From: Clytia hemisphaerica
Lineage: Eukaryota > Cnidaria > Hydrozoa > Leptothecata > Clytiidae
Length of the DNA stretch: 64,000 nucleotides
Assembly (NCBI GenBank): GCA_902728285.1
Contig: CACVBU010001176.1
Location: 461,552 to 525,551, forward strand
Direction: 5' to 3'
Shown here: positions 801 through 32,757 of the stretch, one piece after another
Layout: each line of letters begins with the position of its first letter
How positions within the stretch are numbered: position 1 is the first letter of the stretch
Translations under genes and position numbers: made by a program
The notes under the pieces: model-generated
What the model was told of the DNA's origin: nothing
Database searches by the model: none
The model's input: only the letters and a program-made list of their open reading frames with translations

Positions 801-3291
801 AATCTTGAATGGTAATAGTATTTCATCAGTCGATCAAGCATCATTCGATGGATTGACTTCACTGCACTTTGTGTAAGCACCACAAAAAAAGTTGCCTGAA
901 TTTCAAATTCAATGAATGTTTTCACAAAAGTAATTCTTTATTTGTCACATATGCACACAGTCGTTTGTATTACAAAACCTTGGACAGATTCAAGGTTTTG
1001 ATTGTCAGTTGGGCTTGAAAGATTGATTTGCTTATTCTAAACTCATTAAAAAACTATGTGACTGCTTCTAGTGGATAAAGATTTTTTTGAAAACATTCCT
1101 TTTTTTGAAAGTTCTTGGGCAACAAACACCAAGGTAAGTATATATATGAAATATTGCATGCACCTCAAAACTCAAGCTTCAATTGTGTTTTCTCCTATTG
1201 TGAACTTTGGTATTTCTTGTTAGTGGGCCTGCTCAACACAATATATCCCAGACACTATCTCAATTGAATCTACATGTGAATCCTTATAATATTTAATTGA
1301 AATTTGACAGCATTTGACAATTGAATTTTAATTAGTTACTGTATTGGATTAGCTCAATTGTTAGGTTCAATTGAGATTGTCCGGTAATATTTTCAGTTGA
1401 TATTCAATAACCAAATAAAACCTGTTACAAGCACGAAACAGTCCATTGATTGCAATGATTTCAATTTTGTCAGCCATGCTACCTGAAATTTACACAATAT
1501 AACTTTTCTTGGAACAATCTGAGATGAAGCATGAGTAACACATCGCATTTATTTTTTATATTTTTTTTAACTTTAACATGCATCCCACATGCAAACATAG
1601 ATTTCAGTATTATAGTTGATCAGCATTACAATAAGTATATAGATATTCAAAAGGTAAATTTATTTGGTCATTGAAATTTATCAACCCGAGGTGATGTAAT
1701 ATTTAACAAGCCGGGTAGTGGAGTTTAATATTTATCACCAAGGTTTAATAAATCCAATAACCAACAAAAACCTGTTGAACTTATGTTTTATTATATACCT
1801 AGAAGCAAAAACAAAACATAAGTTATTGAAATAGTTAAACGTTTCACACTCGTAAAACACTCTCAAAATCAAACGTTTGAAAGTTTGTTTTTTTTAATGA
1901 TTTTCTAAATTTTTTGAGTCATAAAATTTGTTCATGAGATTGACAATATACCGGGTGACCCACGAAAAACTTCAGACGTTTCCCGACATCTTGAGGCCGA
2001 ACAAATGTCCCGAAGTGCTTGGAGTTTTGATATTTAGAAAGTAGATATCCTAACTTAAAATTTGAGCTATCACTTTTTAAATTTGACCAAAGTGGTCTCT
2101 ACTTATGAGCTTTTAAAGTCAAAATTCACTTTTCAGAAAGTGTAAAAAACACGTAAAAAAGAGGTATTAAAAATTTGTGCAATCAATTAGAAAATCACTT
2201 ACAAATTGAATTATTTAACGAGTTTTATGACATTAATAATTAATAAAAACACCTTTAAAAGAAATTTTTGTTTAAAACAAGACTAGTTTTTATAAAAATT
2301 GGCGCTTTTGTAGATTTTTCAGATTTTTTTCAAGAACTGTATATCAAAAACGTCTAAAAATACCAAATTTGATACCCCTTTTTTACGGGTTTTTGACACT
2401 TTCCGAAAAGTGAATTTTGACTTTAAAAGCTCATAAGTAGAGAACAAATTGATTAAATTTAAAAAGTAATAGCTCAAATTTTAAGTTAGGATATCTACTT
2501 TCTAAATATCTAAACTCCAAGCACTTTGGGACATTTGTTCGGCCTCAAGACGTCGAGAAACGTCTGAACTTTTTCGTGGGTCACCCGGTATTTTTAACTA
2601 TAAATTTCTTTGATAAACAACAAGAGCTACAAAATATTCAAACTTTGAAAAAAAAATTCTACTTATGTACAATGGCCTGTATATCAAGAATTATTCAATG
2701 GTTGTTTTAACCTACAGGTATATAATAATATTTTTTATCAAAGTTTAATATTTATTATGTAACACTTACTAAATTAAATCCATTTCCAGAATTTTTACAT
2801 GCACAAAATATTTTTATATATGCTTCATTGACTTGCTTCAGAATTATTTAATATCTAGCATGACTAAATAAGCATGTTCATCTACGCATGAGCTTCTAGC
2901 ATGCAGTGGGATAAGATAAATTATTACTGGATTTTTTCTCTTTTAGTGATCTGAGTGGAAATGATATTGTTTATCTTGAAGAAGGTGTCTTCAAAAGCTC
3001 GCCTAACTTGAAGAAATTGTAAGTAGTTTATGGATGCATCCCTATTTAGTCTACTAAAGAAATACAGAGATGAACTTGTTTTCATAGACGGACACAAATG
3101 ACTAAAAGCCAAATATTGATTGTTTTACTTCTTTCCTAGGGATTTGAGTAGAAATAAGTTATTTTGTGACTGGAGAATCTGGTGGTTAGTTCCTTTTGCA
3201 CGAAAACTTGATTCGTTTACTGGTGCTTGTTTTCAACCAAGAGCACTTCGTGGAAGAGACATTAGAACCTTAAAGCAAGAAGACTTAGCAG
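801..3291 (+). CDS. Receptor N-terminal part: leucine-rich repeats and LRRCT cap
   Basis: Two 72-nt exons (801-872, 2947-3018) each encode one 24-residue leucine-rich repeat with the pattern L-x-G-N-x-I ... F-x-x-L/S-x-L, flanked by phase-2 introns as in many animal LRR genes. Exon 3140-3291 encodes the C-terminal cap: LDLSRNKLFCDW, then two more Cys, then a P-x-A-L-R-G segment, typical of LRRCT. These are residues 1-98 of the visible protein. More repeats and an N-terminal cap probably lie upstream. LRR domains of this type usually bind proteins outside the cell. The last intron switches to phase 1, which fits the next module. Confidence 0.85.
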
Positions 3292-9200: not shown

Positions 9201-12200
9201 GTTCCCTACAACACAATAAAGACCTTTGATAAGTTGAGTGAAGCAAAGAAGTGAGCTTTTTCTTTGTGTTACCATTTTTCATGATAATGTTCTTTGTAAT
9301 CAATGAAGTTCCAAACTTTAATGAATTTCAGTTAATGTAACTAGTTTACATCTTCATTTTGTTTTCTCTTCACAATTTAGGGCTTTGTTTACATTTGACT
9401 GATCAATCATGGTTCATTTTCAACAAGACATGTTCAACTGGTAGCCTAATGTTCCAGAAGGTGGTATCCAAAGCTGAAGTGTCCTTCTTAATCAAAGATT
9501 ATAATGGTTATTGTGCACGTATCCAGGAAACAGATCCAACGTCAGAAAGTAAAATCTTCTCAATCTGGAGGACGTGCCATAGGGGTGGATTCACTATATT
9601 CAAATTGACCAGAGAAGGTATGTCATAGATATTTCCCTAATAACGTCAAGATATTTTCAAACTTACAATTTTTGTCTTTTCGTGACAAAATGATGAAATA
9701 TCCTAAAACAATGACATGCTGTGGAGCCACTTAAGCCTGAGAATGTTCCTGCAAGTTCTTGATTGATTTACTTCATTCTTATATATTTTCTTTTGGGTCA
9801 TCTTCATAGATACTCGAGTTTTAAGAGATTAGAGGCAATTTTAGGCTTTCGCTTAAAGCAAGCTTAGCTTAGGAATCATTTCAAACTTTAAAAGCAGTCT
9901 TATAAAGCTTATCTAGCATCGTTGCAACCCCGGGGGGGGGTACTAGGGCAAGATGGGTTTCGGGGATGCTCCGCTGGTCAGGGTACCTTTTTTAACCTCC
10001 ACGAGTCCCTGGTAGGGTCGCAAAAACACCAAAATAGAAAAATCAGTCCCTCGTAGGGTGCCTATTTTTGGAAAATTTGGGGAAAAAGTAGAAAATTTGA
10101 GAAAATTTTGGAATTTCAGTCCCATTCAGGGTCACTTTTTTCGCAAATTTCGAGTCCCACGTAGGGTCCATTTTTCGAACCTCGGCGGAGCACCCCCGTC
10201 GGTCGACAAGGGTAGTACCCCCCCGGGGTTGCAACGACTCATTTTATTAAGGCAAGTCATTTCATTCAGCAATTAAGTTGTTTTAATATGGGGGATTTTA
10301 ATTTTTCTTTTAATGGCCTATTAATACAATAGAGAAATTAAGGGTTAGCACGTGAACGCTAATCTGATAATTAATTGCTGGTTATATTAAATCAAAACGT
10401 TTAGTTTTAAGTGCAATCGACTTAACAAAATCTTTTAAAGGTGCAATAAAGGTTGATTTAAGAACTGCACTGTTGTTTAAATTTCTTCTTAACGAAATTT
10501 GAGCCTCAAGATTTCATAGGCAAATACACGAGAGTTTGATTTCTCAAACGGGTATTTTTTTTCAGAGATTGGAGAGACTTATAAAAAGGCAGTAAAATAT
10601 TAAAATATAAAATGTTGATGAATTGCAAAGCTCGACAATCTCAATTTTTGCCGATCAACTGCAATATGTTTAAATCGCCGGTAAAGCTATAGCATTAGAA
10701 TAACCGTTTCTAAGGTTAAACAAACTCAGGCAGGGTCCCAGGAAATCATTCTAAAAACATTAAATCTCAAACAGACACACAAAATCCGTATTCACTTTCT
10801 TATAATCAGTGTTTATGCTGCCTTTTTTATTGTAGACATAAGGTATTAGTAGCAGGATGATAAAAAAAGAGATTAAAGGACGTTTGTCAAGCGAATAGTC
10901 GTTTACAAAGCCTACCATCCGTCCTATATGTAATTAGTAATTAACACAAGAAAAGAAGTTTGAATGAATGCTGGGGTGCATTGAATAGCCATGTTTGATT
11001 AAAATGTCATTGATTAGCTTTGTAATATAATAGTATATGTTTAATGATCACAAGATTTTGTGTTTTGAATTTTATACTGATTTATTATAAATTGATGCTG
11101 CAATTTTCTTAACCACAAAATTTGAATTTAATTTGATGGTATATTTTTGGTTTTGGGAGAAATGCCTTGGGTTTTTCATGTATTTTTTCTGGTCAGCATT
11201 TTACTGTGTAAGTTGTTATTTCGTTAAGTTCGTTAAATAGAATGTGATTTGGTTCGTTGTACGCAGATTTAACTCAGAATATTAAGTTTGAATAAATTGT
11301 TTTTTTAACTCCTATATATTTGCTTACGCAGTATTAGTAAGAACAACTTTCTAATCTCCCCTGGGCCGCGCAATCACAAATTTTTAGAAATTTAGAAATT
11401 TGTTGTTGATTCTGCTTTGTCACCATAAGAGGCGCGCCTCCTTTCAATAATAATAGAATATCTTTAAACTGTGGGTAACATTGAGGATGGAATAAACTTT
11501 TTTTGTGAGTGATGTATGAAATGAAAGTTTTTTTCATATCTTTATAGATATATTAGTTTTGAAATAGACTAAACGACATCTTTTTGATTGCGGAAACAAC
11601 ACTTCTTTCACTAACAATCAGTAGCTTAAGTTTGATAACCTTTCTGAGATTAGGAAATGTTACACGTTGAACATTGATGGATATTCTCACTATAAAGGTC
11701 AATTTTTTTACTCCTTTACTTCCTCTATATTGACTTGAATAATTGTTTGTACCTTTATGTTCCAGGTGTTTCCGCTTTCAAACCTGTCTTCCCGGAAAAG
11801 AAAACTACCGTTGTAACAGACCTTTTCAAACCTCTCACACTTCGATGTCACGCGCGTGCCGAACCCATCCCGCTTTACGAGTGGAGTAGAAACAACACTA
11901 TACCTTCAGGTCAAACCAAAATTCAAGATGGCGTCGTTGTTAAAAGTAATCATGTGACTTTAACATTACGTAATGTTTCATGGAGTGATCGTGGATCGTA
12001 TTTTTGCAACGCATGGAACAGTAAAGGTTACGAATTTAAAGAATACGAAGTGATTGTTAATGGTGAGTCATTTTTTCAGTAACTCGAATTATGTCTCCTT
12101 AACTCGAAAAAGTTTTCTCGTCCTTTCAAAAAACTCAAAATTTCCATAACTCGAACAAACAGATGTAAGAACACAGCTTAAATTGATGTTTCAACGATTT

Positions 12201-15200
12201 TTACAACTCATTAAAACTTTATTCACTAGCTATTCAAAAGTTTATCACAAGACCGACAGACCAAAAAGTGATTTACGGGGAGAGTGCAAAATTCGATTGC
12301 GTGTCACGTGGTATACCAACACCTCACGTCTCCTGGTTTACGTATGACGAATCTATTGCGGTAGAACGTAACGTCCTCGACATCAATCCACGTCAATTCT
12401 CCGTTTCTGAGAACGGATCGTTGGTCATTACGAATGCGCGTTACGTCGATGAGAAAACGTATCGTTGTGTTTCCACAAGTCCTCGGTTGGTTCGTAATGT
12501 TACGGCGAAACTCGACGTATACGGTATGTGTCCTTTCAGAAAAAATCTGTACACTATTTTTAGCTTTCATGTTGAAATCATTTCAGTATAACTAGACCTG
12601 TTTTGTTTTCGTAGTTTGAGGACAGTAACAAAAAAGACATTTTGAAAAGTCCTACAGTTTTAAAATTTATTCGATTCGAGCAGATAATTTGTTACCGAAT
12701 ATTATCTGGACATTTTTATCAATCATATTTGTTTTGCAATTAATTTTTTTTGATTTTAAATGAAAAACCCTACTAAATTTTCTTTTCAGTTGAACAAGCT
12801 TTCCTTCTCAAGCCTATAGACCAAACCGTACTCTATGGTAGCCCAGTAATTTTCAACTGTGTTTCTGAGGGAAGACCGACACCAACCATTAGCTGGCAAA
12901 TCTCTTTACGAGGGTCTGAAAAAGTCACCATTGTCGGCAAAGATAATGTCGATACTGATGAAAAATACGAGATTCTCAATAACGGAAGTTTAAGAATCAA
13001 CGCAGCCTTCGTGAAAGATGAAGGCGTCTACACGTGTCTGTCTACAAACCCTGGGTTAACAAGAAATACATCTGCTTCATTGGTTGTTTATGGTAAGTGT
13101 GTTTTTCTTTTCTGAATGTGGACATTCAAGAGAGACTTTCGGACAGAGTCATTTCTTGTGTCATTAAGTGATATAGTCGCAGCTATAAAGTCTTTCCAAT
13201 CTTTAATGATTAACTTTCATCATTCAAGAAATATATAGGCCCCAAGCAATCGGGGAGCTGAAGGACGGACCAATAAAATACTCAGATTTCAAAGTAAAAG
13301 TAATATTAATTTCACAATTTTAAATATTTTTCTAGTCACGCAAGAATTCACAAAAGTACCACAACCTAAACGTGTTTTATATGCATCAAACGTCACTTTC
13401 GAGTGTGTTTCTGTCGGCGTGCCAGCGCCATACGTCACATGGCGTAAGCGGGCCATTAACAGCACTACACACTCTGCACTCATTCATTCTGACCTGAGCA
13501 AGTACACTATCTTTGCCAACCGCACGCTTCGGATAAACAACGTTGATTACTCAGATGAAGGCATTTACGAGTGTGTCTCTGAGAGTCCACGCTTGATCAA
13601 AACCAAAGCAGCTGAACTGAATATATATGGTAAATTATTATATGATAGCTATGCAAGGTGTAAACTTTCATAAGTAGAAACTTTCATTTGGATAAACTTT
13701 TGTAATTTTCGAAAAATTCGCACTTTGATTGTAGTGCTCGAAAGTAGAAAACTATATCTCAAGTAATGAAATCTCTATAACTAGATCAGCGAATTTAAGT
13801 ATGTGTGTTTTTTTGCGATGGAGGTAGCACTTTCATCATATACGGTTTTGCGGGTCAGAACTGCGGATTATTCCAAATCGCTTTAGTCACTCCGTCCTCA
13901 AAGGTGCAGATACATAAACTCACTATTTTAACAAAATCGAACGGTAATCAAATTTCTACTTATGAAAGTTTACACTTTTCTTAAATTTGACAGTTTTGAA
14001 ATATTTAACAATAAATTTTGATTGCCTCGAAATTGCACTGAAGATTAAACGTTTTCTTACACTAATCCACCTAAAACTCTAATAGTTTTGATTCTGCAAT
14101 ATTTTTCCTACGTCTAAAGCACTGTCAACCAGTCATTAAACAAGTCAAATTTGAAACGGAAGCGCTTAAACTCTTATTTTGCATGCTCTAATACATTTTC
14201 ACTTAAAAACTTTAACAAATTTATATTCGCAGTAACCCAAAACTTCACGAGTCAACCTGAAGATGGTAAAATCCTCTATGGACATAACCACACCTTAAAT
14301 TGCCTCTCCGTCGGAGTTCCAACACCCTCCGTCACATGGTTCTACAAACCATCTTCATCTAACAAGGAGAATCAAACATTCATTAAAATCACTGATCTTA
14401 TAAATCCTAACATTAAATTGGCCTCAAATCATCAGTTAAATTTAACGAATGCTAACTTTGATATGATTGGCCGATACATTTGTGTATCAGAAAGCCCTGG
14501 ATTGAGGCGAAATATATCAGCATTTGTTTCTGTTCACGGTAAATCTCTTTTACTTAATTCAAATCTAATTGTTTTCAGCTTTTAAAATCGAATCGTCTAA
14601 ACGGCTGGAAAGTCTAAACAACTAATTTTTGTGGTTAAATCATGTCTAACTTTCTAAATTCAGTTAGATTTTTAATGACGTTAAATACCTCAAGATATTA
14701 ACCGCGGAATTAAGAAATCGAAGAATTAAAAGAATTAAAACGAGCCAAAAAAGGCTCGCAATTAACAACGTCTTTTAAATAAAACTTAAAGTTGAACAAG
14801 AGGCTCTTTTTGCTTTGAAACTTAGAAGTTTCATAGGAGCTCACTTTTTCATCAATTCTAGTGACACAACAGTTTACACACAAACCTCAATCACAGACCG
14901 TCATCGAGGGAGATCCAATTGCAATTATGACGTGTATTTCTACTGGTGTACCCACACCCAAAACGTATTGGAAATTCACCAGTTCTTCCACTGGTAAGTT
15001 TGTAATCTTTTTCTTCCGAATCAGATTAAGTTAATCCTTTTAGCTTGAATTCCTTTGTGAAAAGCAAAATTTTTGTTTTGAAAATATTTTTCTCATCGAT
15101 TTTGAACTTCAAAATGGTCTAAAAGCTTATAACTTGAGGAATATTTCCCCTTTCTATAACGGCTTAGTTTATGTCACGTCAATTGAAGTGGTCAGGGGCT

Positions 15201-21200: not shown

Positions 21201-24200
21201 TACTCGTGTTTGGCTTGATTTTGACCAGTGATAAGAAAAACTTGTTTTGAGAAGATGCATCTGATTTCTTTCGGGAAAGTTTTCTTTAAGGCGGGTTGCT
21301 TGTGGAATGCCATGGACAAATGTCTGTAAAATGTAAACGACACCATTCAAACTAACTTATTGTTTATACCTGGCCTCCAGATCAAATTATAATTTTGGGG
21401 AAAACCTCCATTATTTGCACATTCTGCTGCATTCTGTCAAGTTCGATATTTTTTAAACTTCATCTTTGTATCTAGTATCATTTCTTCAAGATTCATATTA
21501 ACCTTGCAATTCGTGTGTGAATTTAACGATTTTAGAGTTATGCTGTGGTATTTATTGACTAAATGTTACAACTGATGATCTGTTTTGATTTTCATCGAAT
21601 TTATTTACTTTCGATTTTTAACGGTACTTTAGCAATTGATTCTATAATCAATTGAAAATGTGTTAAACACCTTGTTTGAAAGGGTTGTCAAACTATTAAT
21701 GTAGACCATTCGCGTATTCGTGTAACTTAATCACCAAATATAAAGATTACAAAAACAAATCAAGAATCAAAAGATAAAAACTATTAGAAAATGAAACTTT
21801 TTAAGAACACAATATTTACCCAGACTAATACAGAATGCTGTGTTCTCAAATACGTTTAAGGCTTTGAATTGTTGAATTGCAGTCAAAGGGGATTTCCATG
21901 AAGTTTCCAGAATACTTTGTATTTTTGTCAACTTGGAGTAAAATCTTAAATTAAAAAACTTTTTTGAGCGAATTTGGGAAATGTTCTTAACAATTAGGTT
22001 GTTAAACTATTAACAAAAACAACAAAATTACTGAGGATCACATTACATTCACGATTTGTCCCTTGGACTCTGTGTGTCTGTAGATTTGTTAGAATTTGTT
22101 TTTGTTTCCTGAAAATCTTTCCTACTCTTAACTGAAAGTGTTGGTCTGTGTTATGGTTTTTTCAGGTTTTAGTTTTGTTTTCTATTCTGGGTATTTGGAA
22201 GGCAAATTATACCGTTTAATGTAGCTATGTATTGTTAATTATGGAGTGTTTGTGTATATGAAGCTGCCGTTACTTAGAAATAGGCAGAAATAGTAGACAT
22301 AAGGCTGTTTTGAACGTCCATCTAACGTTATATAGTAGTAGACGCTGGTGAGATGTGGGATAAAAAAGAACTTTGCAGTGTAATTTCAATTTTTCAGAGT
22401 CAGGTGTCTTCAACACCACCCCTTTCAAAGAATCCATTTAAAGCTCTATTTACGGAAAAGATATGACCCTTATATATACCCCTGGTTATATTGCAAAAAA
22501 ATTTTGGAAATAAGAATCAAAAGTAGTAACCCCGTCTCAGTTGCTTCTTGGTGAGTTATTTTATCAATAAAAATCTCATTTTCTTATCATGTCAAAGTTC
22601 TTATCAAATTCCTTTTATTTTGGAATATGATTCATGAAAACTTATTTTTCAAAAGAAACCGTTTTACAACTACCAGTTTTGAGGTGCTTAAGAGGGAAAT
22701 TTAAAAAAAAATACTAGCGAAATGAAACAATGAAACTACCCAAACTATATCATGACCCAAAAATTACCTAGTTTCATACTTGCCATAAACTATCACGCAC
22801 TAAAATCATTTTTAAAATTTTCAATTGAAGAAGGAATGCTTATAAAGTACAAAGGAAAGAATTTTTTGGAAACATGTAACAGTTATTTTTATACGTTTGT
22901 TGTGATTTTTATTTCTATTCTCATCTTTCTCTTTCTTTCTAAAGAATCCAACCAAGATTCTTCACAAATTTTCACTTGCTTTTTCTATTGAAATTATTTT
23001 TGCTACTACACTTAAAAAGTAATTTTTCAAAAGAGTGTTTTTATTAAGAATTTAAAGAGTGTTAAAACTGATTCGTTGAAATTTTTAAATGATAAACTTG
23101 ATGTGCGATTATTTCTCCTTAAATTTCTGGAAATGTTAGGATTTATCACGTTTTGTCTCAATTCAGACTTCAGTCGGACTTGTTTGTAACGTCAGAGATT
23201 TTATTTAACACCAATTTAGACTGATATAACTTTTATAACACCAACCCTTTACTGAAGTGACCCGAAGTTTCGATTTTACTTTAATGTTTTGACTTCAAAT
23301 GTTGATCATATTTTGATGATGTCATCATTATTACTTTTTCTTTTATACATTTCTGACAGACGGGACCACAATAATGTCGTCTAGGGTTTTAGCTTGTTGT
23401 TTTTGTAGTCTTTAAAGCTATCAACGAAACTTGAACTAAATTTTCCTTATCTACGTATGTCCTTTAGCCAGCTGTAACTTTCGGTTCTAGAAAGTTATGA
23501 GGAACGTGAAAACATAATTGAAGTCAGTGAAAGTCAAAATATTAAAACTCAAGATTTTTGGTCCAGTATAGAGCAGATTGTTTCTTCTTTAAGATAAATA
23601 TAAAGAAATATGTTCAGAAAAACAATTTTTATGGAATTAATATACTTTAATTTGTTGATAATTTTGGTAGGGAAAAATAATGCTCGATTCTATTATGCCT
23701 TGTAATAAAGTTTCAAGTCATCGATGCAGTTTATTGGAATTGGAAGTGCAGTGTACTAAAATAATCCAATTTTCCATTCCATTTTGTTTTGAAGATAAAC
23801 GAATTATGATATGAAGTTATTACTTTAATACCAAAATCTTCTTAACGCTGTCTTGGCTACACTTTAGGTTGTTATAAATATTAATTTCTTCTCAATTTTC
23901 TGGGTTTCCTAGTGTCAAACACGTTCATAAACTTGTAGGAATTCGGTTTCTCAGTGAAAAGATTATCCACTATATTCTCATGTGGTGCTCCCGACTTTTT
24001 AGTTTGTTTTTTAGTGGAGAATTTGTTTCTGTATAAAAAGATTCGAATAATTAAAAAGTGGACTATAATTTATAATTCTTTTCATTTTTTTTTCAGGGGA
24101 CAAATTTTATCAGACGTCTTTTCTCTCTCCTTTACCAAACTACATTCCAAGAAAAACACAACATTGAAATCACCAGCACAAATCATCTTCAAAGTTCCCA

Positions 24201-27200
24201 AAGACCAGGTAAGAGAATCTTACTTTCTTAAAAAGTTTCTAATTGCTAAGCATTCCCAATTTATATCTAATATTTATCTGATATCGTGAATTTTGCTCAG
24301 TTTCGTCTCTATTAGGACCTAATTACTGGTCTTTAATGTTAATACCGAAAACACCTTACCACTTAAATTTCAAAGTGTCATGCTCTTGACTTCTTTTTTA
24401 CCTTTCAATGATTTTTCAGCGAAAATGTGTAGCTTTTAAGGATAAAGATTTTCGGAGATTTCCTAGACCTGGTCATACTGTGTCCATCTATTGGATAGAA
24501 TCTCCTTCGCAAATAGAAATATCTCAAAAACAAGAAAAATTTTCTTATCGTTTTGATAAGATTATTATTAAGGCCTTGTGGTTGTGAGTTAATTCTGATA
24601 GATATGTGTTCATGTGCAAAAGGGTTTTAGAAATTCCTTTTGACTGTGACTGTGTGATTCATTCAGATTTATCGCTTCAAAAAAACTCTTGTACGTGAGA
24701 ATTTATAGGATATTTTTTAAGTTTCGTTGTTGTAGGAACTGGATTTTATATTTGAATTTGATTTTCCGCAGTCAGGGAATACCGAATTACTTACTTACAC
24801 AAGAAAATAAATAAACATCTGAACTTTAAATACAAGCTTTAAAAGACTAGAATTCGGGGGCTCAGATTATTCTTAGTTTGTTCTTAGTAGAATGCGTTAA
24901 AGTTTTAACCTCATGTTCTCATAAATATTTTTTTTACTTAATTCGGAGATTGATTCTGCAAGCTTCCTGCAATGTTTACCTATTTCGTTGTTGTTGTTTT
25001 TTTCGAATGCTCCCAGTTTAAATTCAAAAGCACAAGTGACCTCCAGGTTCAATACACTCAAAATAGATATTCGACATCAGCACCATAAATGACAGATCGG
25101 CTAAAATATATCCGAGTGTTAAATCTCCTCCCTCTAAAACTCCAGCTGACTCAGAACATCAGCACTTCGTCCATTTAGAATTCACGACACCAATGAAACG
25201 TTAGATGAACGTCGATACAACGTCGTTTGTCAGCTGGGACGATTTGTTGATTGATTGCAAGGTGGTTGATAGAATATCACTTTAGGAGGACTTATCTGTT
25301 TTAAATGTGGGTGACAAAACGTGATGTTATTGCAACCCAATGTTTGGACGATGATGAAATGTGCCTTGTGTTTGTGATATACTAAGAAAAGATTACTGTA
25401 TTTCAAGATAGATGACTCTGAAAGAGCCTGAGAATTTGAGTGAAATTTTGGTTACCGCGTTTATCTGACGTAAATGTGAGATTCGAATCTCCTGAAACCT
25501 GGAAGAACTTCTCTGATAAATTATCGGACATAAACCCATAATGGAGTTTGGCCTAGGTTGTCAATTTCTTTCTGTTTAAAGTCAAATTCATTCCAATTTC
25601 ACTTTTATAGGAAGCACATAAAGAAGGTGTATGCGTTTACTGGGACTTTGAAAAGTAAGTATTAATGTTTTTTTAATTTTTTTTCATTTGCAAGAAAGGT
25701 GCTTGCTTCTATTAGTTGTGACTTAGGAAACTCTCTAATATATAGGTTGGATACCAAAATGGAAATATTCAAAAAATTTGATAACACCTCTGATTTAATC
25801 AAGGAACTTCAATAAAATTATATCAAAGTCCTTATGACTCAAAAACAAAAATCCCATCGCAAATAATGCTGTGATAAGCTTCGAATTCAAAGTTGTTTTT
25901 TTTATAAAAATCATTCAATCACTCCTAATGTCCATGGAAAATTCTGAGAATTTCAATGCTTAATACAAGTCTCTTTTGGTACATTTAAAATCATATGAAG
26001 TATTTTGAATAAGTTGATAAAATCTTTTTCCCATTTCATTTATACTTTGAAAATTTCATTTCACCATTTTACCACATTAGATTTTTCACGCAGATGTTTT
26101 ATAATATACTTTCATCCCCCCTTAATTTCAATATTCTCAACATCTTTTCAATTGAAAAATATCTATCTTGGATTCTGGTCGTTTTTGTTGTTATTTTCAC
26201 GAAGCTTCTAGAATCTAACCTAAGATTTCTCAATTTGACCTGGCTGTTTTAAGAGGGAATATGAGGAAAGATTCACCTTAGAAAGCAAGCTCTCGACTCT
26301 CGGAAATTTCTCATTGAATAAAAGCGGCACGATTTTCTTAGATAATTGAGGCACAACCTTGAATAATTACACTCATTTGAATTAAAAGTTACTGTCGCTA
26401 TCTATTTTTCCAGTTCTATTAGACAATGTTGTGCCAAGGTCAGGCTAACATATGGACAGAAACAAGATAGTCGATATTCTCAACCCCAGCAATCTGTTAG
26501 CATATCTTAAGTATCTTTCTCATTTTTATTTTCTGCAGGGGTCAGCACGGTTCATGGTCGACAGAAGGATGTGAAGTAGCAAACACCACGGATACTGAGG
26601 TCATCTGTCAATGCAATCACTTGACTAATTTTGCTGTTATTGTTCCCACGGTAAGCAGAAGTCTTTTAACCGTTTAGTATTATTTCGAAAACGCCTTGAA
26701 TTTTATCAATCCAAGAGCTTTGTAGTTTTTGAAAAAGAAAGAATGCGAGGTCTCGGTTTAGTAGAAATTACGAGAGCTCCAGAAATCTCATTCTATCGGA
26801 GTTACAGACGGCCAAAAATGGGATTCTTGCCCAACGGAACCTTTGGACTGAAAGGGGTTAAATTTATATAAACGTTTCAATTTTTTTCTTAAATGTATTT
26901 TGAAATGGAATGATAAAGTGCCACTTCGAGAAAAATATTTTCATGTTTTTATTGGGAGGTGACTTATGTTTTTATTGGAGACAATATTTCGTAAATTGGA
27001 GAAAGAATAACAGAAAATGTTTTGAGAGGAAGAAAATAACAATGTTATGGCATTGATATTTTGTTTGGTACAAAATCATTCTGTTCTGCAAATTCAGCGT
27101 TCGCGTCCTGAAGACTTCAATTTTATAGGTTGTTATGAGTCTTATAAATGCATGTTGAATGTAGTTTAGAGAAACTAGAATGATAAAGGTTTTGATACAT

Positions 27201-30200
27201 GAGCAGATATGTAGTTCGAATCTTACTTTAATTCATTAACCTAGCTCTTCATCCTTAAGTTAAAATATTTTCCATACAAAGTTAGCTATTTTCAACCAGT
27301 TTTTTTCGTGTTCTTATAGGTTTTTGCCAAATTTTAAAAACGCGAGTTAATTCTTCCCTTTTCCATTTCAGCCGCCATTAAAGATGATTCATTTACAAAT
27401 ATCGTTAGCTGTGGCAGTGGGTGTTGGCCTTTGTATTTTCTTGGCATTCTTAGCTTGTCTCTCACACGTCTGTTGCTCGCCGTAAGTTTTCACCTCTTCA
27501 AATTCTGTAAAATCTCTTTATTTTACTCCGCCTCCTGGGTTTTCCAATTCATTTTCCTGGTATTTACTCTGACACTCTGGCTGGGGGGGTTGTGAATCAA
27601 TTCTACTCTATGAATAGCCTTAGGTAGAGAGAATCAATATTCCACTTGGATGGCCCGATAATCTAGAACTTTTAGACAACATCTCGATCATTTTCACCGG
27701 GTCTATTTCATGGCGGCTCGGGGATCTATGAACTGTTGGAGCTGCAGGGACCAGGGCCCCTCAATTCCAACACCGAAGCTTTAGAGTCGAGTATTCAATT
27801 TCTACACCTGTCCACATTCAACTTATGATTCTTCATTTTGAACCACCACAGATATGCAGATTCGGACCGCAAAGCCATCTTGGTCAACATCACATTGACA
27901 ATCATCTTTTGTTTGATGATATTTACTGGTGCTGTCTTCCTTTCAACCATGGAATTGGTGCCTGCTAAATATGGTCAGGTATGGATTGATTGATAGTTTA
28001 TCGTTCTTTCACAATATGCTTATGGTTTATATATTTCAGTTGCTCGTTGATAGCTTGATAATGATAGACTGCAATAAAGACCGGAGAAGGGGGATTCTAT
28101 TTGAATAATACGTATGCTCGGCAAGACATTACACCCTCGCAATGTAGGGAATGTAACTAAAATTCGGTTAAATTTTGTCAGTTTGAGCAAATATCTTATT
28201 AAGTTGATATAAAATTTTCTGTCCTTTTCGTGTATTATATGATAAACCTTTTCAATTTAGTATTTCTGCTACACACTGATCGGATGTTTACAATTATTCG
28301 GATGTGCATTCTTCGCTTGGATATTCGCCGAGGCTATTCACTTGTATCTTTCAACCAGACTGGTCATCGATAAAGGAGATGGAAGATTAGCCTTGTTCTA
28401 TTTCATCGGATGGGGTAAGCGGTCTCCTGTCTAGAAAATTTCTCACACTTCAGTTGTGAAATAAGATGTGTTCTTACAAGAGACGGTAACATTCTTGTTC
28501 TGCAATGAAAGTATTCTAGTCCTACTTCAATTTACCTTCTTCCTCTAACAACAAGTTTCTTTCAAATGAAATCATGTATACAGCTGAAAATTGCTCCGAG
28601 AGACGACTTGAAAAATCCTCCTAACTTGAAAGCCGGAATAAACACTATTGCTCTCTTGCTCCGGGATTTTTAAGTTTTTTTAACTGTAAACTTGCACAAA
28701 AATAAAACTTTATCACAGGACAGTATCTGGTTTGGTCTCAAATTAATCTTTTTGTTATTTTTTTACTCAGGAATCCCGATCATGATAGTGGCAGTGACCG
28801 GTGTTTTAGTGTATTTCAATAAATTTGATTTACAATCGAGATGTGTGGTCAATATTTCATTATATTTGGTCGGTATTATCATTGGTGGGCCTGTGTTACT
28901 GTATATCCTTGTAAGTTCAATATGTCTTTCACGATGTACATATATTGAATTAAGGTTACAGTCACGCTGACAATTTACGTGTTTTTTAAAAGAATTTGGA
29001 TGAGAAAATTCGATCACCTAATACTACAACAATACTGAGAATTTTTAAGCCCACTTTCAAGTCAACATTTAAGAGTGAAAATTTTGAGAATTAGTAACAA
29101 CGGAAGCCCAGCTCAAATTTAATGATTATTATAAAAAAGTACTTTGATTTTGGCCTTTTGACTTTTCCTAATTAATTTGATTTTTATTGCATAAGTTCTT
29201 ATTTATTTCATCATAGGGAACTCTGATCGTTTACATTCTGATTCGAGTATCATTGGCAAGTGACAGAGAACTTCTGAACGCCAAGATACTTTTCCACGCC
29301 AAAGGAGCTATCTACTGTTCATTTTGTTTGATGTTGCTGCATTTGCTGGTGTTGGGATCAGCAACCATGTTCTTGAAATATAATGGGGAAATTCTATATC
29401 ACTATTTCTTTGCTGCGTTGACGGCTGCAGAGGTAAATATATATTTTTTGATTGATTTTCCCTATATTAAGAAAGCTATGCTTTGGTAACTTACCTGCTG
29501 ACTAACGACATTGCTTCGAAATCCATTCAAATCTCACAGGACGCCAATATAACGTTGAACGACCAAACAGTTATAATTTCAAATCTTGTTTACATTGTGA
29601 TTTTAGAGGCTTTACTTGGTGATCTATCGCCATGCCAGTTCTCTTTTGTCATTCCAATCGAGGACCTTTTTTATTTTAACTCCCTGTGTCTTTTGTCATT
29701 GGAGAGTGTCTTTACTTGGTGATTTGTTCTTATTCTGACGTCCTTGTGTCTTTTGTAATTCCCATAAGGACTTTACTTGGTGTTTTATCCTCCCGTGTCC
29801 CTCCCCTGTCTTCCCATAGGAACTTACTTTACTTGATTTTATCGTTATTCTAATACCCCGTGTCTCTCCCATAGGGACTTTACTTGGTGTTTTATCATTG
29901 TTATGTTGATCGACGAGCTCATCGAACCTCATCGAGGTCAAACTCCAAGAAAAGAAACTCCTACAGCACCAAAGAAACTGTGACAGTAAGTTGCTTCACA
30001 CTAATTCCTTTTTTAACCCTGAAGAGCCGTTATTTCCAACATAATTTACGCGGCCTTCATGGTTTTCCCACATGGATTGAAAGTCAAAACATGAGCTTCA
30101 CAAAGACAAATAAGGGATATTGTAGAATCAATCCACCGCTGCAAAAATGGCGCAAATTATCAGCCCAGACCTTACCAAAGCTGTATAATATAGACTTCAT

Positions 30201-32757
30201 CTAAACTAATGTTTGGTTAGGTGGACGGGCTAGCTTGCTAAACGAGTCGAATGATTCCTCTTTTTTGGCCTTCATCCAAAAACCTGCAGCAATTTCTCTT
30301 TGAAAGCAGGAAAAGAAGATTATGTAAAACGACTTCCGCAAAATTGTGTACAAGAAACCATACAGCTTGCCAAGTTACATTGTCTGACCAAAAATAGTTC
30401 AATAGTTCAGAATACTAGTTAATGACTTTTGGAGTAATTACTGGATTAGTTTACATCAATTACTGCTCATTATTCGTTTTGTATTTGGCACCATTTTAAT
30501 GTTTCATAATACAACATGTGATGCTGTTTGTTTCCAAGTGCAATTTCCTTATCTTATAACTTCTTGTGAGAGCGTATAATATTTTTGTCCTTGGTTTGTT
30601 TTGATGAATATTTATAAGAGGAAGCAACCAAACGAAAAAATGAAAAACAGAATCAACCGACACTCTTAAATTAACAGGCAGAGCTTTTAACCCCGATTCC
30701 TATAAAACCTTCTTTTTCATTAAAAAGCTACTAAGAGTAAATACTTTATGTTCAAATATCAATTCTTCCTTGTCTAACGTGGTCAAAAAGAAAGCATCGG
30801 TTTCTGTTTTGAGGGTGCTAAGCTCAGTAAAGGGAACAAAAAATGAAAAGGAAAAATCTGTTAAACAAACTTACTAAAACATGTGATATATCTTTCATGA
30901 ATCATAGTACTGTAGTTGTTGAATGAGATTTTAATGACCAAGCAAAACCAACGGGGGCTTCAATATCAAAAAGAGACTATTTTGAAAAGCAATTAATAAT
31001 ATCCATAACAAGCTTACGTTGGTTAGACCACATAATACGAAAGCTTGTAACACACTAAATCTAGTAATCACTAACTATTGGCGCCTTTTTAGAAATTTTA
31101 AAACCTTGGTTAGTCTAAAATTAAATTTGGAAGATTATGGATGATTAACAGTAAATTAGGATATTTCCTGAATGATTTTTGTCTTAAAATCGCCAACTCC
31201 TCCTCTGCGTGTACCTAATCGCTACACCTATGCCACAAGGGGAGTTAGATTCGAGTCAACTTGGATCGGATTATTACAAATATTCTTGTATCTGTGAACA
31301 TCAAAAGTGATTACTCAGGTACAATCCATGCATTTCGTTGTCGGTTCAATTCTTTCAAATTCTCAATTTGTTTGTCTTTCTTTTTCCAGTATTCGCCAAA
31401 CGGCACTTCTTCAAACACCGAATTAGCGGAAGAGGTTTCAGCTAATGACCAAAAGTTTTTGATCAAGCGCCCGTCAAAGCGGACATCAACAGACAGCCGC
31501 CCTTCACCGCCCCAAGTGCGGAATCTTCAACAACATAGCTCCGAAGAAGCGTTAGAATGGGACTCAGCATACCAAGGAATGTACGGTGGAAGTATTGGAT
31601 TTAGCAACAAGTGAGTATTTTGATTCCATTTAGTCAATTTACATTTGAATAATACGTTCCTTGTCTGCCGTTGTGTTTATTTTTATATACATTAAACCTT
31701 TGACATGGCAACTCGGCCGCAAAAAATCATAAAATTACTTTTCGTAAGTCAAATAATCCTCAAGGTAAATTCATAGTCCCTTGAAAAAGTCATGACTAAA
31801 ATCTCTCATTTATTCATATTTTTCCCCATAGTACACCTCACTCCTCACACGAAACAAAACCGCTCCTTTCACGTCGAACCGACACGTTAACGGAGGAAGA
31901 CGGACAACTGACGCCATCAACATTTCACGGAGGAACTATCAGTAAAAACAGTACGTTAAGCCGTAATAATACATTGCCAAAGAGATGGAAAGATCTAGAT
32001 GAGGTTGATGGCAGTGCGAGCTATAATCACCACAAACATCCTATACGAAGATCGAACAGTAAAGCTAGCAGTATACTCAGTGTTGAAACGGTAAGAAGAA
32101 TTAATTGAATTTGAACCATTAAATGATGATTTGCAATACTGACTTTATGATAACTATGAAAAAACTCGTACCTTTTAAATTATATTGACGTTCATTAAAA
32201 ACGCTCTGAATTCTCATTCTCTTGACTTTTTTGTTTTTCAGCATACGAGTGGCGCCAACACGCAACACGGTCTCCCCGTTTACTTCCCCGCCCCACCGCC
32301 ACACTACGAAATGTCATTAGAACGTCGTAAAAAGAACACTTTTGGTCATGAGTCAGAACCGTATGATGACGATTCAAGGCGTGGTTCCTTCGGTATGGAA
32401 TCAGACCGAATGTCAAATATCTCTTCAGAACTTTCGAATATATTATACGAACTTCAAGCGTTCGACACGAACGTTCCGCAAGACACACACGAGCGGAAAC
32501 AACCTCAGGCGTCAGGTAATACGTTACCGTCATCTCGTCGTGACGGCCCGATGACCGATATCAGTCATAGTCCTATGTCGACATTCAGACCAACGAAAAA
32601 TAAAGACTCGAATAAGAGCGATATACAGTATGAAGAAAATAAACCACCTAGCTATACTGATCATCAGCGAGTCCGTATTCTGAGAGGGAAATCGAGACAA
32701 GAAACTGACCCAGCAGATGGTCTCCATAGTCCAGGTTCAATGTATTCTAGCCTGTAA
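801..32757 (+). CDS. Giant multidomain adhesion GPCR (39 exons visible, 5' partial)
   Basis: A cell-surface receptor of the adhesion GPCR class. Exons: 801-872, 2947-3018, 3140-3291, 3581-3790, 4110-4318, 4586-4700, 4978-5153, 5460-5588, 5787-5928, 8946-9119, 9381-9617, 11766-12062, 12230-12523, 12790-13092, 13336-13629, 14233-14538, 14862-14993, 15406-15576, 15893-16165, 16508-16681, 16998-17159, 17596-17726, 18065-18268, 18458-18526, 18777-18891, 19057-19179, 19706-19781, 24097-24208, 25611-25654, 26539-26650, 27372-27481, 27852-27978, 28261-28414, 28771-28910, 29217-29432, 29875-29985, 31390-31610, 31832-32090, 32242-32757. Every junction is AG/GT. The total is 6934 nt, exactly one frame of 2310 residues plus stop after the first base. 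Extracellular modules are bounded by phase-1 introns, the usual sign of exon shuffling. Seen: the frame and motifs. Inferred: that one transcript spans all 39 exons; the 3.0-kb and 2.1-kb introns around the unknown Cys module are the weakest links. Confidence 0.88.
1651..1772. mobile_element. Short inverted-repeat element in intron (MITE-like)
   Basis: A tract of about 120 bp whose two ends are imperfect inverted repeats (AGGTAAATTTATTTGGTCAT against the reverse complement of the end near 1772). A related half-site lies near 1400-1425. No coding capacity. It lies inside the receptor intron 873-2946. Confidence 0.45.
1951..2588. mobile_element. 638-bp non-autonomous DNA transposon with very long terminal inverted repeats
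   Basis: The ends are CCGGGTGACCCACGAAAAA and its complement, flanked on both sides by the dinucleotide TA, consistent with a TA target duplication as in Tc1/mariner-like elements. The inverted arms continue for roughly 190 bp each (about 1951-2140 and 2400-2588) with only scattered mismatches, so the transcript would fold into a long hairpin. No transposase frame is present. It sits in the intron between two LRR exons. The rest of this 2-kb intron shows nothing I can name. Confidence 0.8.
3581..4700 (+). CDS. Receptor GON domain (exons 3581-3790, 4110-4318, 4586-4700)
   Basis: About residues 99-276. Matches to the GON domain, known from the C-terminus of GON-1/ADAMTS9/ADAMTS20 metalloproteases: the opening Cys region followed by DGDYEMRVFG, then IYCYEMAS.DPTEFLSLPSG (family pattern: DG-[DE]-Y ... 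YC..M .. P-x-[ED]-[YF]-[IL]-S-L-P-x-G), then TYVKIDLRRLQLIANDS, a VTYGKP..CDS segment and DLRGTHFQL, and finally a Cys-rich end (C..QCGESC). The block starts and ends at phase-1 introns and so is an intact shuffling unit. Known: in ADAMTS proteases GON is an extracellular domain tied to cell migration and trafficking. Inferred: here it is a ligand or matrix-binding module. Confidence 0.85.
4978..5928 (+). CDS. Receptor F5/8 type C (discoidin) domain (exons 4978-5153, 5460-5588, 5787-5928)
   Basis: About residues 277-425. It begins CTLPLGMQNSKIPDLELTASS and continues with ARIN, W(C)AE, EFVIHLGK, SWVKSYEVFYSVDG, NYNLVTHWFRPRIIARFVKI and ends with LEIYGC. These are the landmarks of the F5/8C fold in order, and the first and last Cys form the usual terminal disulfide. 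The usual WLQVDLG is NQEFVIHLGK here. Such domains bind carbohydrates, lipids or matrix proteins outside the cell. The block is phase 1 at both ends. A CT run precedes the acceptor of the third exon. Confidence 0.92.
6114..6480. mobile_element. 367-bp inverted-repeat element with 8-bp target duplication (CCCGG/GGTACT family, copy 1)
   Basis: The direct 8-mer AAGAGATG flanks the element (6106-6113 and 6481-6488). The ends are CCCCGG..GGGGGGTACT and AGTACCCC..CCGGG, followed inward by an inverted GGGTATGTGCGTGCC / GGCACGCACATACCC pair. Inside are about five spaced copies of CCCTTAGAGAGACT. An 8-bp duplication is typical of hAT-like elements. No coding sequence. It lies in the receptor intron 5929-8945. 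Confidence 0.8.
6591..6611 (+). repeat. Poly-C tract
   Basis: About 20 consecutive C residues in an intron. Length in such tracts is error-prone. Confidence 0.8.
7194..7575. mobile_element. Inverted-repeat element inserted in a tandem repeat unit
   Basis: The ends are TACCGTCAAGTTACACAAC and GTTGTGTAACTTGACGGTA, extending inward over ATGCAC/GTGCAT. The element interrupts one repeat unit, so it is younger than the array. Outermost TA on both sides fits a TA target site. A 98-residue minus-strand open frame inside has no recognisable similarity and I do not call it a gene. Confidence 0.65.
8149..8182 (+). repeat. (CGAC)n microsatellite
   Basis: Eight to nine tandem CGAC units in the same intron. 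Confidence 0.9.
8946..9617 (+). CDS. Receptor Cys-rich module of two exons, possibly beta-trefoil (exons 8946-9119, 9381-9617)
   Basis: About residues 426-562. The reading frame joins the F5/8C exon upstream and Ig1 downstream through phase-1 introns. Repeating elements are visible: RCLTVGE, KRGCEGSDFMFTF, TGLCLHLTDQSWFIFNKTC, GYCARIQ and IWRTCHRGGFTIFKL. The alternation of C-L-x-[VL], W-x-x-x-x-C and hydrophobic F-x-F strands resembles ricin-type beta-trefoil lectins, but the classical QxW triplets are not clear, so the fold is inference. It could be a lineage-specific Cys module. The coding status is good because the frame is open over 137 residues across a splice. Confidence 0.6.
9929..10227. 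mobile_element. 299-bp inverted-repeat element with 8-bp target duplication (CCCGG/GGTACT family, copy 2)
   Basis: GTTGCAAC flanks both sides (9921-9928 and 10228-10235). The ends are CCCGGGGGGGGGTACTAG and AGTACCCCCCCGGG, matching the element at 6114-6480. The internal sequence is different and is shared, in reverse orientation, with 60450-60765. Because the duplicated 8-mer is itself a palindrome, the exact element edge is uncertain by one or two bases. The rest of intron 9618-11765 shows nothing I can name. Confidence 0.75.
11766..16165 (+). CDS. Receptor array of seven Ig domains
   Basis: About residues 563-1252. Ig1 11766-12062, Ig2 12230-12523, Ig3 12790-13092, Ig4 13336-13629, Ig5 14233-14538, Ig6 14862-14993 plus 15406-15576, Ig7 15893-16165. 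Each shows the B-strand Cys, the core Trp in a P-x-P/T-x-x-x-W context and the F-strand Y-x-C motif (for example GSYFCNAW, KTYRCVST, GVYTCLST, GIYECVSE, GRYICVSE, GKYTCFSE, GEYACVAT). All are bounded by phase-1 introns, one exon per domain except Ig6, which is split. Ig2 to Ig6 share a rare ending, S-P-[RG]-L followed by R/V-N/K, pointing to tandem exon duplication within the gene. Ig1 and Ig7 differ (NSKG and NAAG turns). Several N-x-[ST] glycosylation sites are present. The role is likely extracellular ligand binding or a stiff stalk. Confidence 0.93.
16280..16360. mobile_element. Small hairpin element, CAGCTGGCAC/AACGTT family
   Basis: CAGCTGGCAC is followed by two inverted arms (AACGTTGTTTCGACGTTCAT at 16291-16310 and its counterpart ending at 16360). 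The same family occurs at 25186-25243 and 33283-33371, with pieces near 22310, 16690 and 35671. It lies in a receptor intron. Confidence 0.6.
16508..16681 (+). CDS. Receptor sushi/CCP domain
   Basis: About residues 1253-1310, a single phase 1-1 exon. Four Cys in the sushi order: RCLMDEIPNGDL, then VTCRKGFKREG, then LTCTGTGFF and PFPKCE. The N-G after the first Cys and the G-[FY] after the second are family landmarks. The usual Trp before the last Cys is replaced by Phe. It is the module between Ig7 and the EGF. Confidence 0.9.
16771..16845 (+). repeat. tRNA-derived (SINE head-like) fragment
   Basis: TAGTGGTCGAG (16778-16788) resembles an RNA polymerase III A box and GGTTCACAC (16823-16831) a B box, at tRNA-like spacing and with tRNA-like sequence between (GCGTGCTTGACTCTAATCGG). 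It is degenerate and lacks full tRNA stems, so I read it as a SINE remnant in an intron rather than a functional tRNA. Confidence 0.4.
16998..17726 (+). CDS. Receptor calcium-binding EGF domain and Pro/Thr stalk (exons 16998-17159, 17596-17726)
   Basis: About residues 1311-1408. It opens with DIDEC, the calcium-binding signature, and continues with CDYNARCVNTLGSYQCIC and GYIMVRNKC, giving six Cys in EGF order. About 28 residues rich in D, E, M, S and T are inserted between the first and second Cys, far more than usual. The intron falls between Cys5 and Cys6. After the EGF, a linker with PPP, KKTSTTPPP and charged residues leads to the GAIN domain and looks like a flexible, possibly O-glycosylated stalk. 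Confidence 0.88.
17358..17456. repeat. Three spaced copies of CCCCTGGATATC
   Basis: ACCCCTGGATATCG, ACCCCCTGGATATCCG and ACCCCCTGGATATCCG occur about 37-45 bp apart in a receptor intron, probably a remnant of a repetitive element. Confidence 0.5.
18065..26650 (+). CDS. Receptor GAIN domain with GPS autocleavage site
   Basis: About residues 1409-1693; exons 18065-18268, 18458-18526, 18777-18891, 19057-19179, 19706-19781, 24097-24208, 25611-25654, 26539-26650. The first half is helical (for example EENFLIKLLNFTNG, RRVVDRALNVTVSQ), as expected for GAIN subdomain A. The second half has SDVFSLSFTKLHS and AQIIFKVPKD. The GPS motif is complete: CVYWDF, then SWSTEGC, then VICQCNHLTNFAVIVP. All four Cys and both Trp are present, and the H-L-T triad fits autoproteolysis between Leu and Thr. 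Known of the family: the cut leaves the new N-terminus (TNFAVIV here) as a tethered agonist. A 4.3-kb intron splits the domain, and the 44-nt exon 25611-25654 is the smallest in the gene. Confidence 0.93.
19782..24096. other. 4.3-kb receptor intron
   Basis: The largest intron found. It holds the small inverted-repeat element at 20653-20797 and an AACGTT-family fragment near 22310. The remainder is AT-rich sequence in which I see no exon or known element. Confidence 0.7.
20653..20797. mobile_element. 145-bp hairpin MITE
   Basis: The arms TATTCATGATATGCACCATT and its complement extend over GACGG.CCCAACAG to give about 60-bp near-perfect inverted repeats (20653-20714 and 20738-20797) around a short loop. 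No coding capacity. Confidence 0.7.
24209..27371. other. Receptor introns between GAIN, GPS and TM1 exons
   Basis: Three introns of 1.4, 0.9 and 0.7 kb around the exons 25611-25654 and 26539-26650. An AACGTT-family hairpin fragment lies at about 25186-25243. Otherwise nothing recognisable. Confidence 0.6.
27372..29985 (+). CDS. Receptor seven-transmembrane domain
   Basis: About residues 1694-1965. Exons: TM1 27372-27481 (ISLAVAVGVGLCIFLAFLA), TM2 27852-27978 (AILVNITLTIIFCLMIFTGA), TM3 and start of TM4 28261-28414 (GCAFFAWIFAEAIHLYL, FYFIGWG), TM4/TM5 28771-28910 (GIPIMIVAVTGVLVY, then VVNISLYLVGIIIGGPVLL), TM5 end, TM6 and TM7 start 29217-29432, TM7 end 29875-29985 (GLYLVFYHC). F-x-A-W-x-x-x-E-A-I-H-L-Y and W-G-I-P are class B2 signatures. 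The Cys at the top of TM3 and the Cys in extracellular loop 2 (SRC) can pair. The signature is closer to latrophilin-, CELSR- and ADGRD-like receptors than to the LRR-containing ADGRA group, although ADGRA also carries LRR and Ig domains. Confidence 0.95.
29601..29874 (+). repeat. Tandem copies of the TM7 exon start and its splice acceptor
   Basis: The first 20 bases of exon 29875 (GGACTTTACTTGGTGTTTTA) and the preceding TGTCTCTCCCATAG are echoed at 29601-29623, 29701-29723, 29761-29789 and 29811-29840, each with T-rich spacer and two with a CATAG or ATAAG acceptor-like site. The reading frame from the 29767 copy runs into a stop within about 20 codons, so these are decoy copies and not alternative exons. 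Confidence 0.75.
29986..31389. other. Receptor intron after TM7
   Basis: A 1.4-kb intron between the last membrane exon and the cytoplasmic tail exons. No exon or named element seen. Confidence 0.6.
31390..32757 (+). CDS. Receptor cytoplasmic tail (exons 31390-31610, 31832-32090, 32242-32757)
   Basis: About 330 residues, rich in Ser, Thr, Arg and charged residues and without a predicted fold. It contains many Ser/Thr in basic contexts (phosphorylation is likely but not shown), a PPSY motif that fits WW-domain binding, and the end SMYSSL, whose last residues (S-x-L) fit a class I PDZ ligand. Exon GC and codon use are higher than in the introns around it, and the stop TAA follows directly. Tails ending in PDZ ligands are known in several adhesion GPCRs. 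Confidence 0.88.

Follow-up and report, generated by a model that had tools for sequence, protein, structure and literature searches.

The window, i.e., the whole stretch of 64 kb that was analysed (positions 461552-525551, the final 64 kb of contig C810), carries on its plus strand what is probably one 40-exon gene encoding a single 2373-residue adhesion G protein-coupled receptor (aGPCR), most likely a receptor tethered to the extracellular matrix or to a cell surface. As judged from the predicted protein, leucine-rich repeats (LRR), a GON domain, an F5/8 type C (discoidin) domain, a cysteine-rich module (Cys module), seven immunoglobulin (Ig) domains, a Sushi domain and a calcium-binding EGF domain would precede the GAIN domain, the seven transmembrane helices (7TM) and a cytoplasmic tail (Table 1).

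Table 1. Parts of the predicted receptor gene, in window coordinates (negative positions lie upstream of the window), and the second aGPCR locus of the genome
Feature	Exons	Position	Strand	Basis
ATG, signal peptide, LRR N-cap	1	-2684..-2500, upstream of window (locus L009)	+	hydrophobic segment aa 5-26
LRR (two 72-nt exons) and LRR C-terminal cap	2-4	801-872, 2947-3018, 3140-3291	+	LRR_8 42.9 bits, aa 62-117
GON	5-7	3581-3790, 4110-4318, 4586-4700	+	PF08685 63.1 bits, cut-off 22.6, aa 162-308
F5/8 type C (discoidin)	8-10	4978-5153, 5460-5588, 5787-5928	+	PF00754 92.6 bits, aa 356-482
Cys module	11-12	8946-9119, 9381-9617	+	sub-threshold Ricin_B_lectin
Seven Ig (I-set)	13-20	11766..16165	+	I-set, 7 stretches, 276.4 bits total, E 7.5e-84
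Sushi/CCP	21	16508..16681	+	PF00084 31.3 bits, aa about 1321-1371
Calcium-binding EGF and linker into GAIN	22-23	16998..17726	+	EGF_CA PF07645 29.0 bits, cut-off 27, aa about 1403-1435
GAIN ending in GPS (CQCNHLTNFAVIV)	24-31	18065..26650	+	GPS PF01825 61.7 bits, aa about 1711-1753
7TM	32-37	27372..29985 (exon starts 27372, 27852, 28261, 28771, 29217, 29875)	+	7tm_2
Cytoplasmic tail	38-40	31390..32757 (stop 32755-32757)	+	PPxY x2 (PPHY, PPSY), C-terminal YSSL
Second aGPCR locus		C254: L026-L029, L045; C589: L030-L033	C254 -, C589 +	Pfam on ORFs

The gene model was obtained with an exon-chaining program that uses home-made scoring, generic splice-site matrices and codon log-odds trained on 1375 codons from obvious exons of the same gene, the start at 802 and the stop at 32757 being imposed. 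Its output comprised 37 exons (2198 codons) at a milder intron cost and 26 exons (1729 codons) at a harsher one. The 37-exon version was edited by hand: one LRR exon was lengthened, 3140-3291, 5787-5928 and 29875-29985 were added, and a program-proposed exon at 7044-7140 was dropped, 5787-5928 being preferred as completing the F5/8C domain. The final model contains, within the window, 39 exons (801-32757) with introns that are all GT-AG and a single open frame of 2312.3 codons including the stop, i.e., about 2311 residues. This bears out the 39 exons and 2310 residues in one frame that a sequence-only reading of the same DNA had proposed; the agreement is not fully independent, because the boundaries 3291 and 5928 were already known during hand editing. 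Of the extent given in that reading, 801-32757, the stop stands and the start does not, since exon 1 sits upstream of the window; its addition brings the full model to 40 exons and 2373 residues.

A stronger test of the model than exon agreement is provided by Pfam on the spliced protein, run as four pieces. Codon scores, which are partly circular because training used exons of the same gene, exceed those of 95% of stop-free background windows for 20 of the 40 exons and those of all background windows for nine. The tail exons, parts of which were in the training set, lie above every background window, and several LRR, GAIN and transmembrane exons are unremarkable against background (e.g., 3140-3291, 5787-5928, 24097-24208, 27372-27481 and 28771-28910). 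The acceptor of GON exon 6 at 4110 is poor, and the GON Pfam match nonetheless spans that joint.

Several further features were seen in and around the gene. An LRR-like stretch at about -1884..-1833 (L009; QLELKEDQFRSMTFLDI) was rejected as an additional exon, as it measures 52 nt, breaks the frame and has, by eye, a poor donor; it follows an AG, out of frame, and is possibly a decayed LRR exon. The second intron holds an inverted repeat (1945-2594) with arms of 227 nt that are 93% complementary, reminiscent of a MITE. Farther upstream, at about -13130..-12453 (L010), lies an ORF with a CCHC zinc knuckle (CYVCQEPGHLAINC) that resembles a retroelement gag. On the minus strand downstream of the gene, an ORF at 40868-41419 combines a long polyproline run with Cys-Pro-rich stretches (CPVPCPAPCPVAC ... 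CAPACMPPACGPTCSRDCC), and GGAPPP repeats are found just upstream of it in another frame (region 40868-42744), the frames not joining simply. We take these ORFs to resemble cnidarian nematocyst minicollagens, the cysteine spacing at 40868-41419 being one residue off the minicollagen pattern CxxxCxxxCxxxCxxxCC; Pfam returned no match for them. On this resemblance, the DNA probably comes from a cnidarian. Rfam and tRNA scans of the 64-kb window gave nothing informative.

On the spliced protein, all Pfam modules except the Cys module exceed their curated cut-offs, and they follow one another as LRR, GON, F5/8 type C, seven Ig, Sushi, calcium-binding EGF, GPS and 7tm_2, which is the unusual order claimed from the sequence alone. 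At the N-terminus, an LRRNT match stays under the cut-off (E 0.02), and the nearest matches of the LRR part in a PDB sequence search are LRR proteins. The GON match covers positions 3-159 of the 199 of the profile, so that the last fifth of the profile is unmatched; the domain was also seen at 3583-3765 in the genome-wide profile search. Factor V/VIII C domains are the best solved relatives of the F5/8C domain in the PDB sequence search. The sixth Ig domain is split across 14862-14993 and 15406-15576. Mutual identity among Ig2-Ig6 amounts to 32-42%, vs. 17-32% for pairs involving Ig1 or Ig7, as expected from a tandem duplication of the inner five domains.

The assignment to the adhesion GPCR class, likewise put forward in the earlier reading, holds: the GPS and 7tm_2 profiles both score over their cut-offs, and the best match of the GPS and 7TM part among solved structures is ADGRL3 (7wy5, E 3.6e-26), with ADGRG6, ADGRD1 and others also matching. 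Residues 1563-1754 align with solved ADGRG3 (7qu8, E 1.4e-10); GAIN before residue 1563 is assigned by position only, and no GAIN-named Pfam profile matches the spliced protein at E<=1. Directly before the first transmembrane helix, at aa 1744, the GPS reads CNHLTNFAVIV, that is HL/T followed by NFAVIV. By its sequence, this is a canonical GPS with a tethered-agonist-like segment, TNFAVIV; we take the arrangement CQCNHLTNFAVIV to be the one that known aGPCRs cleave at the L/T bond. The 7tm_2 match (48.7 bits, cut-off 20.6, aa about 1768-2007) extends over positions 4-248 of the 250 of the profile. A plain hydropathy scan gives six segments in the 7TM part, not seven, and one more in the sixth Ig domain; the 7tm_2 and ADGRL3 alignments extend into the TM7 region. 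As a separate observation, the start of the TM7 exon (29875-29896) has an exact 22-mer copy at 29768-29789, 107 bases upstream in the intron.

The exon phases carry a signal of their own. Introns of phase 1 occupy 12 of the 12 extracellular module boundaries (LRR/GON, GON/F5-8C, F5-8C/Cys, Cys/Ig1, six Ig/Ig, Ig7/Sushi and Sushi/EGF) vs. seven of the 27 other introns (hypergeometric P 1.3e-5, the boundaries having been picked by domain after the model was seen). This supports the earlier suggestion that phase-1 symmetry of the modules reflects assembly by exon shuffling.

The identity of the Cys module deserves closer consideration. It matches the Ricin_B_lectin profile PF00652 at about aa 496-566 with a library-wide E of 0.0057, and its length of 137 aa, near that of one trefoil, together with three C...C pairs visible by eye, suggests that it may be a degenerate ricin-B-type beta-trefoil; in codon score, one of its exons, 8946-9119, exceeds 1843 of 1875 background windows, both Cys-module exons having been excluded from the training set. 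However, the match reaches only 17.3 bits and falls under the Pfam cut-off of 29, the PDB sequence search returns as best match an unrelated protein at E 0.47, internal symmetry is not significant (reached by 1711 of 5000 shuffles), and the codon score of the other exon, 9381-9617, lies above just 631 of 766 background windows. Nor was a paralog found: two of three genome matches merely recover the module, and the remaining one, on C654 (E 0.49, inside a retroelement-like ORF), was discarded as a chance match. That the module is instead an unrelated Cys-rich domain, or that its exons are absent from the transcript, is a doubtful reading with a real chance of being correct.

Profile searches covered one animal genome (417 Mb in 951 contigs), in which one copy of the present gene was found; it is the sole gene found there with GON and GPS together. 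GON gave nine exon matches on four contigs, those of this gene and of three others (C18, C93 and C939). At the C18 locus, the ORF with GON also contains TSP1_ADAMTS matches, and others immediately precede that ORF. The C939 locus (L037, C939:500001-510000; 1418-9040, plus strand) is flanked on both sides by Kazal matches and followed by VWA on the same strand, and a pattern scan of that stretch for TSP1 and zinc motifs gave no match; GON stands there in a setting with no recognised ADAMTS modules. In two ORFs neighbouring the C93 locus, no Pfam match was seen. None of the three qualifies as a further GON receptor, since of the 37 GPS matches, at least that many existing in the genome (counts of large families being lower bounds), none lies on these contigs. 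Elsewhere in the genome, the GPS of the present gene is best matched on C254 (47%), and a copy of that locus lies on C589 (48%). In a comparison of 60 kb, pieces totalling 15.9 kb aligned between these two loci at 91% identity; the two probably represent uncollapsed haplotypes. At C254, seven of nine scanned ORFs have a Pfam match (two F5/8C pieces, I-set, fn3, GPS and two 7tm_2 pieces) and two have none; the tail ORF carries a PPSY motif. An aGPCR combining F5/8C and Ig domains therefore seems to occur twice in the genome.

A single gene for all modules is supported by the continuous frame, by introns that are uniformly GT-AG and by the clear signal peptide that exon 1 encodes; the second aGPCR locus, with F5/8C, Ig, fn3, GPS and 7TM, also speaks for one receptor. 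The locus could also be read as two adjacent genes, the first encoding a secreted matrix protein with LRR, GON and F5/8C domains (and possibly the Cys module), the second an aGPCR with Ig, Sushi and EGF domains and a start of its own. The gaps of 3.0 kb at 5928-8946 and 2.1 kb at 9617-11766 speak for such a division, as do the stop that read-through past 9617 meets after three codons and a weak signal-peptide ATG at 11162, where the background of 4 per 42 kb predicts about 0.2. However, the exon ends flanking each gap are phase 1, and in both gaps the best stop-and-restart parse scores under the joined parse. The joint 9617-11766 scores -0.02 vs. -8.7 for the best split (with a stop at 9628 and a restart at 11162), so that splitting costs about 8.6 units there, without a stop penalty. 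The joint 5928-8946, with its weak sites, scores -5.8 vs. -8.3 for the best split (-3.7 plus -4.6, no signal peptide, again without a stop penalty); it is the weakest splice joint and the weakest point of the model, ahead of the split by about 2.5 units only, and it falls at the first gap, as two genes would have it. No signal-peptide exon was found in 5929-8946 by the criteria used, and the F5/8C and Ig ORFs at the C254 locus lie only about 0.7 kb apart. AATAAA occurs 11 times in one of the gaps and three times in the other, counts that say little because the DNA is AT-rich. Taken together, a division into two genes appears improbable.

A third reading retains one gene, in which the 5' modules (LRR, GON, F5/8C or Cys) would be alternatively spliced cassettes and the full order would correspond to one, possibly minor, isoform. 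Since the module boundaries are all phase 1, the modules are skippable without a frame shift, and adhesion GPCRs are well known for diverse isoforms. This reading is compatible with a single receptor gene; as an account of the locus we regard it as rather unlikely, though less so than two genes. We retain the single 40-exon gene as the preferred model.

For such a receptor, the class to which it belongs suggests how it may work. The GAIN domain would cleave itself between HL and T, as the motif predicts, and the long N-terminal fragment would be anchored through its adhesive modules by ligands of the extracellular matrix, by glycans or by neighbouring cells. A pull on this fragment, or its removal, would then expose TNFAVIV, which would activate the 7TM part and its G protein; the tethered-agonist mechanism of aGPCRs is summarised in part of PMC12716839. 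WW- and PDZ-domain proteins are candidate partners of the PPxY and YSSL motifs in the tail. GON may serve here as a ligand-binding module, or it may help so large a protein to be secreted, a role reported for GON-1. While the anatomy is described at the level of sequence, we infer cleavage, ligands or anchoring, and signalling from the receptor class, and a matrix-binding role is suggested by the types of module present.

Tentatively, GON may have moved as a phase-1 module within this lineage and joined LRR, discoidin and lectin-like modules on a signalling receptor. The receptor would then be a composite sensor of the matrix, linking ligands of GON or the secretory role of GON to a tethered-agonist GPCR, and possibly founding a cnidarian GON-aGPCR subfamily. 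The protein is a novel arrangement of familiar domains within a known receptor class, and no new kind of receptor; GON on a GPCR is unexpected, but the adhesion GPCRs of invertebrates are commonly domain mosaics. If all modules reside on one transcript, an early-branching animal equips an aGPCR with more kinds of adhesive module than the sections of papers considered here describe, GON also occurs outside ADAMTS proteases, and a natural receptor is at hand for testing what GON binds.

With adhesion GPCRs (class B2), of which ADGRL3 is the nearest solved member, the predicted protein shares the HL/T GPS, TNFAVIV, 7tm_2 and a long modular N-terminus, differing in GON and the possible ricin-B-like module. 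Among these receptors, ADGRA (GPR124/125) has LRR and Ig upstream of GAIN, with HRM before GAIN. The present gene similarly unites LRR and Ig on one aGPCR upstream of GAIN, whereas Pfam finds no HRM in it at E<=1 and it bears several additional modules. GON itself (63.1 bits here) is common to the present protein and to ADAMTS9/20/GON-1, which are metalloproteases according to the consulted part of PMC4517882; in contrast, no protease or TSP1 match at E<=1 was obtained in the 2373-residue model. In open-licence PMC, titles of the GON domain literature mostly name ADAMTS, and no paper there pairs "GON domain" with "adhesion GPCR", "GPCR" or "cnidarian"; subscription journals and protein databases lay outside this search, so that an annotated counterpart of this architecture may already exist among the proteomes of other cnidarians. 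In one paper that mentions both adhesion GPCRs and ricin (PMC12716839), the word denotes a plant genus. EGF, fn3, Ig, HRM and SRCR are listed on aGPCRs in part of a sponge survey, from whose text GON, discoidin, LRR and ricin are absent (PMC4302439). For amphioxus aGPCRs, excerpts of PMC2246102 describe discoidin and I-set domains and propose domain shuffling; the present receptor has both domains, and its GON and Sushi are not named in those excerpts. Within the same genome, the aGPCR on C254 and C589 differs from the present one in having fn3 and no GON match at its locus, and resembles it in the order F5/8C, then Ig, then GPS/7TM, and in its PPSY tail.
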